Made by a program: the position numbers and the translations under genes. From assembly GCA_944324485.1 (NCBI GenBank), contig CALUWM010000004.1, positions 1-64,000 of the forward strand: a stretch of DNA of 64,000 nt. The letters run 5' to 3'. The stretch comes from Candidatus Gastranaerophilales bacterium. Lineage in GTDB: Bacteria; Cyanobacteriota; Vampirovibrionia; Gastranaerophilales; Gastranaerophilaceae. Shown here one piece after another: positions 57,029-62,921 of this stretch. The notes beneath the pieces are model-generated. The model was not told the origin of the DNA. It saw only the letters and a list, made by a program, of their open reading frames with translations, and ran no database searches. Positions within the stretch are counted from its first letter, which is position 1. Each line of letters opens with the position of its first letter.

Positions 57029-57523
57029 TTATTTGGAAGAAGTATTATTTTTCATTCTTTTTTTATTATGAAATTCTTGTTTTATTTTTTCAAATTCTGC
57101 TTTTTGAGCATCATTTAGTATGCTTTCGAATTTTTTTCTATTTTCTATTCTTATTTTATCTGCTTTTTGTTTTAGCAGCACCAGCTCAAGTTTCAGCGGT
57201 GTTGATTCTACGTTTGCTTGTATTTTTGATGTTTTAGTTTCGTAAATTCTTTTTATTTTTTTGCTTAAATATTCCATTTTTTTAACAGTTTTTTGCATTT
57301 CTTTTCTATATTCAAGCCTGTTTTCATCTATTTGTTTTTTTTGTTCAGCTGTTAAGTTGAGTCTTGTTTCAAGCATTAAATCAAAATCTCTTTTTTGTTT
57401 ATGACATTCTATGCGTTTTTGTTTTTCAAATTGATTGTTTTGAAAGTTTATTGTTGTGTTTTGTGCAAAAGCACATAAATTAACTGTAAAAATTATGGTT
57501 ATTATGGTTAAAATTTTTTTCAT
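57029..57523 (-). CDS. Periplasmic LTxxQ (Spy/CpxP/CnrX-like) protein
   Basis: 164 aa. Signal peptide MKKILTIITIIFTVNLCAFA, then an all-helical domain with LTAEQ (residues 57-61) and a partner LNDAQ (136-140), the two half-motifs of the Spy/CpxP/ZraP/CnrX superfamily. These bind misfolded proteins or metals in the periplasm. It lies 1 nt after the ECF sigma gene, so it may be the sensor of that module. CH at 40-41 could be metal ligands. Confidence 0.85.
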   Translation of the reverse strand: MKKILTIITIIFTVNLCAFAQNTTINFQNNQFEKQKRIECHKQKRDFDLMLETRLNLTAEQKKQIDENRLEYRKEMQKTVKKMEYLSKKIKRIYETKTSKIQANVESTPLKLELVLLKQKADKIRIENRKKFESILNDAQKAEFEKIKQEFHNKKRMKNNTSSK

Positions 57524-57524
57524 T

Positions 57525-58019
57525 TTAATCTTCCTTAATTAAAAAACTGAGCTTATCTTCAAGAATTTTTCTTGCATTATTTATTCTTGATTTTACTGTT
57601 CCTGTTGGAATATTTAATTTCTTAGAAATTTTTTCATAAGAGTAATTTTCATATTCGTATAAAATTATTACTTCTTTCATTTTTTTTGGCAGTGAATTTA
57701 CTGCCTTAAGTATAATTTTTTGTCTTTCTTTTTGAGTATATATTTCTTCAGGTGTTTTTGTGTTGCTTATTTTTTCTAAAGTTTCGTCATCATGATCCGT
57801 GTTGTTGCTGTTTTTAAAATGCGAACTTTTAAGGTAATCTCTGCAGATATTTGCTGTAATTGTGCATATCCATTGTGTAAATTTGTTTTGCTCTTGATAT
57901 TTGTCAATGTTTTTAAGCGTTCTTATATAGACCTCTTGCTCAAGGTCTTCGTTGTATTCGCCTGTAAATTTTTTTATTATTTGTTTTATTTTATTACTGT
58001 TATTAAGTATGTCTTTCAA
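57525..58019 (-). CDS. ECF-type RNA polymerase sigma factor
   Basis: 164 aa. Region 2 (EDLEQEVYIRTLKNIDKYQEQNKFTQWICTITANICRDYLK) and region 4 helix-turn-helix (LPKKMKEVIILYEYENYSYEKISKKLNIPTGTVKSRINNARKIL). Directs transcription of a small regulon, presumably envelope stress. Central gene of a three-gene unit with 2-nt and 1-nt spacings. Regulon promoters are not identifiable here. Confidence 0.95.
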   Translation of the reverse strand: MKDILNNSNKIKQIIKKFTGEYNEDLEQEVYIRTLKNIDKYQEQNKFTQWICTITANICRDYLKSSHFKNSNNTDHDDETLEKISNTKTPEEIYTQKERQKIILKAVNSLPKKMKEVIILYEYENYSYEKISKKLNIPTGTVKSRINNARKILEDKLSFLIKED

Positions 58020-58021
58020 GA

Positions 58022-58243
58022 TTATAGCCCTAATGCAAAATCGTTTTCCATAAGCTCTGTTTGTAAACTCTTGGTTTCAAGTGCAAAATATAAATTTTCG
58101 CCTTGTGTATAAAGTTGTGCTATGCTTCCAAGCAACATCATAGGCATACTTATCATAACAAACAGAGTTATCATTGCTTTTCTTCTTTTATTTCTTTTGT
58201 ATAAAGGTTTGGCTTCTTGAAGTATTTGTGATAATTTATCCAT
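58022..58243 (-). CDS. Small single-pass anti-sigma-like protein
   Basis: 73 aa: a short cytoplasmic helix (MDKLSQILQEAKPLYKRNKRRK), a TM helix (23-44) and a periplasmic tail of about 30 residues. First gene of the ECF unit with SD GAGGG. Size and layout match short zinc-free anti-sigma factors (CnrY/NccY type); the role is inferred from context. Confidence 0.65.
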   Translation of the reverse strand: MDKLSQILQEAKPLYKRNKRRKAMITLFVMISMPMMLLGSIAQLYTQGENLYFALETKSLQTELMENDFALGL

Positions 58244-58455
58244 TTTTATCCCTCTTCATATATTATAACGATTATTTAATTTTTTTGTTCATATTTTTTT
58301 TGTTACATTTGTTAATATTTTTTTTCTTATTATTACTGTGTTTTAGCTGTGCTTATATTTTTTATATACTAAATATTAAAATAAAAAGGCAATTTTATAT
58401 CAAAAAAATACTTTATTTATATATAGATGAGGTAAATTCAAGAGAGAGATAAAAA

Positions 58456-62384: not shown

Positions 62385-62921
62385 ATGGCAAAATTAATTG
62401 GAAGCAGTTTATTTACCGGTGCAATTTCCGGTCTAAATTCAAATTTTTTATTAATGTTAAATGGTGGTAGTGGTTTAACTTTGGATAATCTTTTAAATCC
62501 TTCTTCTGATAACATTAAATATACTGTTAATCAGTCTTTTAGAAGTTATATGATGAATAATTTTAATCAGATTGATATAGATGGTGACGGTACAATTTCA
62601 CAAGAAGATTTAAGTGGATATACTACAAAATTGCAAACTCAAGGTATGACATATAACGAATTATCTCAGTTATGCGCAAGTAACGGTTCTATGTCTAGTC
62701 TTTTAGATACTGTTTTGTCTAACTTTAATGAAATAGACACTAACCATGACGGAAGAGTTACGCAAAGCGAGATAAATGCTTATAGGATAAACGAGGAAAT
62801 TCGGGAAGTTAAAGACAAGTATCCTAAAATTGATCCTACAAAAATGTCTATGTTTTATGAAACAGATACTTCTAATGATACTTCAAGTTCTACTGATAGT
62901 GATGATAAGGTTTTTAAATAA
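62385..62921 (+). CDS. EF-hand domain protein
   Basis: 178 aa. Two canonical EF-hand loops: D64-I-D-G-D-G-T-I-..-D75 and D118-T-N-H-D-G-R-V-..-E129, both with helix-like flanks (FNQIDIDGDG, FNEIDTNHDG). N-terminus Ser/Gly/Leu-rich, C-terminus Ser/Asp/Thr-rich tail. No signal peptide. Ca-binding is expected from the loops; role unknown. SD GAGG. Confidence 0.85.
   Translation: MAKLIGSSLFTGAISGLNSNFLLMLNGGSGLTLDNLLNPSSDNIKYTVNQSFRSYMMNNFNQIDIDGDGTISQEDLSGYTTKLQTQGMTYNELSQLCASNGSMSSLLDTVLSNFNEIDTNHDGRVTQSEINAYRINEEIREVKDKYPKIDPTKMSMFYETDTSNDTSSSTDSDDKVFK

Follow-up and report, generated by a model that had tools for sequence, protein, structure and literature searches.

The stretch of DNA analysed here, called the window, comprises 64,000 nucleotides (positions 1 to 64,000 of contig CALUWM010000004.1, assembly GCA_944324485.1) from a Candidatus Gastranaerophilales bacterium. 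Gastranaerophilales are gut bacteria and non-photosynthetic relatives of cyanobacteria. On its minus strand the window carries an operon of three genes, which encode a 73-residue single-pass membrane protein, an extracytoplasmic function (ECF) sigma factor and a secreted LTXXQ protein of the Spy family. Judged from profile comparisons, the 73-residue protein is a descendant of the class I (RsiW/ZAS-type) anti-sigma factors that is without their zinc bundle, and is not a full ZAS member. The operon as a whole probably forms an autoregulated envelope-stress switch, with a one-helix membrane protein as anti-sigma factor and a Spy-like chaperone as its output and probable source of feedback.

The operon and its shortened anti-sigma homologue

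The three genes lie in the order anti-sigma-like protein (58022..58243, ATG start), sigma factor (57525..58019, 164 residues, TTG start) and LTXXQ protein (57029..57523, 164 residues, ATG start, signal peptide), separated by gaps of 2 and 1 nucleotides. The coordinates, together with Pfam matches for the second and third genes, bear out this part of the original prediction, which made no mention of the ECF-type promoter at 58291-58264 or of the zinc-finger ancestry of the first gene. The sigma factor exceeds the Pfam cut-offs for Sigma70_r2 and Sigma70_r4_2 and the NCBIfam cut-off for TIGR02937. Its closest solved relatives are E. coli sigma-E, SigW and AlgU, with CnrH far down the list. Elsewhere the genome encodes a further ECF-like sigma factor (G000:C3:53530-53961; about 190-200 residues, 30% identical to this one); it occurs in nearly all relatives searched, including those that are without the window-type sigma.

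Clear orthologues of the sigma factor were found in 46 of 58 genomes, the window's own genome being counted among them. Each of the 46 loci has a gene for a small membrane protein directly before the sigma and one for an LTXXQ protein directly after it, so the trio in the window is not a chance arrangement. Conservation of this order had been named beforehand as a point on which the original prediction could fail, and the prediction survives it. Intergenic gaps across the orthologous trios range from about -14 to +25 nucleotides, and in one genome (G010) the sigma gene is frameshifted. Four genomes of the same genus have no sigma orthologue (G005, G009, G022 and G027) and none of them retains the small protein, which indicates that a genome tends to have either the whole module or none of it.

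The 73-residue protein matches no Pfam family. It has one hydrophobic core, at residues 24-42 (58118..58174, from hydropathy), with eight Lys or Arg residues before it and one after, a bias that places the N terminus in the cytosol. The cytosolic part consists of a single helix, residues 1-22 (58178..58243), equivalent to helix 4 of the anti-sigma factors, in which M1, E10, A11, P13, L14 and Y15 are invariant. The periplasmic tail, residues 43-73 (58025..58117), carries a degenerate version of the MG(L/F)P(V/T)D(E/D)YGL motif of its relatives.

Among those relatives the protein has two forms. The zinc form, found at 19 loci, has 105-128 residues and an N-terminal Hx3Cx2C motif, while the short form, found at 26 loci, has 72-84 residues; the zinc motif is absent from the window protein and from all 26 short forms. 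The profiles of the two forms align from the first residue of the short form over its whole length (hhalign 99%, E 2e-18), and the zinc-form profile in turn matches RsiW in the PDB (E 1.4e-4). These two matches indicate descent from the ZAS anti-sigma factors. Weak matches to Pfam zf-HC2 occur in nine of 14 zinc forms, and a Pfam search with a hand-written 25-residue consensus of the helix gave no match. The first residue of the short form corresponds to the Met with which the last anti-sigma helix starts (EKMxKVSxLVKEAKP in the zinc form, MDKLSxLLKEAKPLY in the short form), and the median length of the cytosolic part falls from 61 to 23 residues. A zinc finger hidden upstream by a misplaced start is ruled out, since the open frame of the window gene allows only 77 residues. 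In the sigma tree a single change (support 99/96) separates short from zinc forms, and two loci (L024 and L025) are intermediate, being short yet keeping the periplasmic tail of the zinc form (MGLPTDEYGL type). One of these, L025 (genome G039), belongs to a family, f6, in which two other genomes carry the zinc form, a possible case of transfer.

The promoter and its predicted targets

The operon is preceded by a predicted ECF promoter of the -35 AAC / -10 CGT type (58264..58291, minus strand), in which TGAAC (58291-58287) and CGTTATA (58270-58264) are separated by a 16-nucleotide spacer and CGTT starts 27 nucleotides before the ATG of the first gene. The SigW promoter, with AAC at -35 and CGT at -10, is of the same general type. 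GAAC followed at 16-17 nucleotides by CGTT, AGTT or CGTC lies upstream of the first gene at all 46 orthologous loci. TGAAC itself is present at 45 of them, and strict TGAAC with CGTT at 42, compared with 0.13% of shuffled sequences. In the window's genome the operon promoter is the sole exact match to TGAACN{14,18}CGTTATA.

The looser pattern TGAACN{16,17}CGTT has 17 matches in that genome. Besides the operon's own, three of them occupy AT-rich gaps immediately upstream of genes whose products are secreted or membrane proteins. In 28 genomes of the genus, 67 matches to TGAACN{15,16}TCGTTWWA outside the operon were examined, and 50 of these sit 8-68 nucleotides before an open reading frame of at least 80 residues with a signal or transmembrane segment (control, 1 of 30). 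The most widespread target family, R1, has 15 members, which are small membrane proteins whose tail is rich in His and Cys. The other predicted families are a 16-member cluster of small secreted proteins, the six-member R3 and a three-member family of about 250-270 residues; a TolC-like protein is a predicted target in two genomes. R1 in the window's genome (G000:C11:61968-62303; L057, L289) has about 112 residues, with ECFCKS on the cytosolic side and a tail of the type HHYMEH...CDCPCHKK, and matches no Pfam family above cut-off. With 9.0% His and 4.3% Cys, it is a candidate metal-binding target of the window sigma. The site before R1 is present in all 18 sigma-positive genomes of the genus in which the start is readable, while two near-complete genomes that are without the sigma (G009 and G027) retain R1 and have no site.

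The LTXXQ protein and the case for metal sensing

The third gene product scores 31.3 bits against the Pfam LTXXQ family (cut-off 24.3; E 3.4e-7) and has an N-terminal signal peptide by sequence. The family profile matches E. coli Spy (E 5.9e-8) and, weakly, ZraP; no CnrX chain was matched by sequence. The AlphaFold2 (AF2) model (predicted local distance difference test, pLDDT, 92) is all-helical and hairpin-like, and it superposes with moderate scores on CpxP and CnrX (102-108 residues, 2.3-2.9 Å), a kind of match that helical bundles give in numbers. Positions M1, A20, L55, Q61, L117, L136, Q140 and E150 are invariant or nearly so in the family. L027 and L028, LTXXQ proteins from two related zinc-form genomes, have a Cys/His-rich N-terminal extension, CNCDCKCDCGCDHHKGHHHGYHKGHHPC, that may bind metal.

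The original prediction read the operon as a CnrYXH-like envelope or metal sensor with a different gene order. In a metal switch of that type the LTXXQ protein would be a periplasmic metal sensor directly controlling the 73-residue anti-sigma. What stands of the original reading is a conserved module of an ECF sigma, a protein of anti-sigma ancestry and a protein of the Spy/CnrX fold; the first gene, however, traces to the class I zinc anti-sigmas. Metal sensing by a CnrX-like protein gains something from the fit of the model to CnrX (104 residues, 2.4 Å) and ZraP, from the His/Cys-rich R1 and from the Cys/His-rich N termini of some LTXXQ relatives such as L027. However, the sequence match is to Spy and not to CnrX, and no conserved CnrX-type set of His, Glu and Met ligands was found among 45 LTXXQ homologues; for these two reasons the family comparison points to a Spy/CpxP-type protein and away from a CnrX-type metal sensor. 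The protein also resembles a cleavable secreted protein, not a membrane-anchored one, and regulon families other than R1 are not rich in His or Cys. A metal switch of this kind is therefore unlikely.

CnrYXH and NccYXH of Cupriavidus do resemble the window system in that a single operon encodes a small membrane anti-sigma and an ECF sigma together with a periplasmic protein whose fold is of the same class. Nevertheless, CnrY has two cytosolic helices and belongs to class II (PMC7406223, PMC4598750), whereas the window protein has one helix and descends from class I. CnrX senses metal, and its ligands are not conserved in the window family; the gene order in the window is anti-sigma, sigma, LTXXQ. 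The short-form profile matched no CnrY chain in the PDB, a weak test with so short a query. On present evidence the window system is not a member of the CnrYXH group.

RsiW-SigW and the other ZAS systems share with the window a single-pass anti-sigma beside its ECF sigma, and the long form of the window family has their Hx3Cx2C motif. They differ in that the proteins of the window's genus and of gut Alphaproteobacteria have the last helix only, not the three-helix zinc bundle, and in that a Spy-family gene is part of the operon. Spy, CpxP and ZraP share LTXXQ motifs and fold with the third gene product; these textbook proteins serve two-component systems (Cpx, Bae and Zra), whereas the Spy-family protein of the window is tied to an ECF sigma.

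Proposed mechanism, alternatives and spread

In the switch proposed here, the single cytosolic helix of the first protein would, at rest, hold the sigma to the inner membrane. In the class I anti-sigma factors, coevolution analysis has helix 4 covering sigma-2 and helix 1 covering sigma-4 (PMC7406223). The short protein retains only the equivalent of helix 4, on the sigma-2 side, along with the transmembrane segment and the short tail in the periplasm, and it would still bind and inhibit its neighbouring sigma through the helix that blocks sigma-2. Envelope damage would act on the tail, either directly or through proteolysis, and so free the sigma; a protease of the site-2 family is encoded, although this family is near-universal. 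Once freed, the sigma would use TGAAC-N16/17-CGTT promoters to transcribe its own operon, along with a regulon coding for small proteins that are secreted or lie in the membrane. The operon's Spy-like product would act as a periplasmic chaperone and probably damp the signal, as CpxP does. Such a switch would resemble RsiW-SigW or CnrYXH in the outline of its working.

The sigma gene of Gastranaerophilales starts with TTG at 25 of 26 short-form loci and with ATG at 17 of 19 zinc-form loci, and the TTG start may keep the sigma below the level of its partner. The same observation lends itself to a different account, in which the shortened protein, no longer an inhibitor, would only assist the sigma or tether it to the membrane, and activity would be set by expression, through the TTG start and autoregulation. 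A TTG start could hold the sigma low even where no strong inhibitor acts, and the short protein has lost the bundle through which class I anti-sigmas contact sigma-4. However, conservation within the short protein is highest in the very helix with which class I anti-sigmas contact sigma-2 (PMC7406223), and the alphaproteobacterial short forms precede sigma genes that mostly start with ATG. A non-inhibitory protein is accordingly judged quite improbable.

A milder alternative keeps the switch but gives the Spy-like protein no signalling role, so that a two-protein switch is joined to its first target. The gene is last in the operon and its product is a Spy homologue, and the regulon is made up of other envelope proteins, all of which fit a chaperone that is output and nothing else. 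Yet this gene is the sole target that always lies within the operon, in both of the phyla that carry it, which suggests a link tighter than that of a mere output. This alternative is a serious possibility, though one that falls short of being probable.

Several points weigh against the inhibitory switch. A model of a read-through fusion of anti-sigma and sigma from the relative L002, with the stop read as Gly, folds the sigma domains with a predicted template modelling score (pTM) of 0.45, which is a weak check. In an analysis of coupling between the helix and the sigma, on 101 pairs (effective number, Meff, 67), the top pair, L8-I137, lies in sigma-4, a signal judged unreliable since related sequences dominate the set. 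The pattern TGAACN{15,16}TCGTTWWA has 83 matches in 28 genomes of the genus and its reversed control 82; raw promoter counts, being equal to this control, were dropped as evidence in favour of site placement. Two sigma-negative genomes, G005 (77% complete) and G022 (95%), retain the R1 site; either the sigma is missing from their assemblies or its loss is recent. All genomes compared are draft assemblies.

The module is not confined to Gastranaerophilales but occurs in gut Alphaproteobacteria as well. A scan with the short-form profile, taking one genome per species, gave at least 80 loci. Among the matches listed, 21 are Gastranaerophilales or already-known loci and 59 are others, nearly all from uncultured gut Alphaproteobacteria such as 'Azospirillum sp. 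CAG:239'. An ECF gene adjoins 58 of these 59, an LTXXQ-type gene 56, and the same promoter is found at 57. In 240 evenly drawn Alphaproteobacteria the module is present in six, always in the short form; no zinc form was found in this sample, and the short-form motif of the main scan could miss other forms. In eight genomes from other taxa, most of them Alphaproteobacteria, the exact regulon pattern gave few matches, and these were mostly the operon's own promoter. At two loci (L219, 4276-4629; L240, 4281-4658) the gene after the LTXXQ gene encodes a secreted, His-rich protein, which may be a fourth member of the operon in some Alphaproteobacteria. Locus L221 (JAISVX010000003.1), named Lactobacillaceae, has the alphaproteobacterial version of the module and is probably a misnamed metagenome-assembled genome.

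In a tree of 97 sigma sequences the zinc forms group together in a single clade (100/97), the short forms of Gastranaerophilales occupy two places, and the alphaproteobacterial sigmas fall among short forms, the deep branches being weak. The simplest reading of these sequences is that the module was transferred between phyla. Since zinc forms were found only in Gastranaerophilales, a direction from Gastranaerophilales to Alphaproteobacteria is suggested, with the same weakness of the deep branches. In Azospirillum brasilense an operon of RpoE8, a hypothetical protein and a periplasmic heavy-metal sensor has been described, with the sigma gene listed first (PMC12826043); it is similar in make-up by description only, not by sequence, and indicates that trios of this general kind are already known in Alphaproteobacteria. 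In the literature searched, no paper contained both 'Gastranaerophilales' and 'sigma factor'. Apart from the operon, the window encodes at 62385-62921 a 178-residue protein with a pair of EF-hand motifs of the calcium-binding type.

The broader proposition has about an even chance of being right: that a single cytosolic helix of some 22 residues, derived from zinc anti-sigmas whose N-terminal bundle was lost at an internal Met, suffices to hold an ECF sigma, and that module and promoter crossed between Gastranaerophilales and gut Alphaproteobacteria as a conserved envelope-stress switch in both. The family offers a traceable loss of an anti-sigma factor's best-known domain, in which the partner, the operon and the promoter were kept. 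Because the long and short forms both survive in one order, the question of how small an anti-sigma factor can be is directly testable. An envelope-stress switch is also predicted in this way for uncultured gut bacteria of two phyla, and its simple promoter signature can be searched for in metatranscriptomes.
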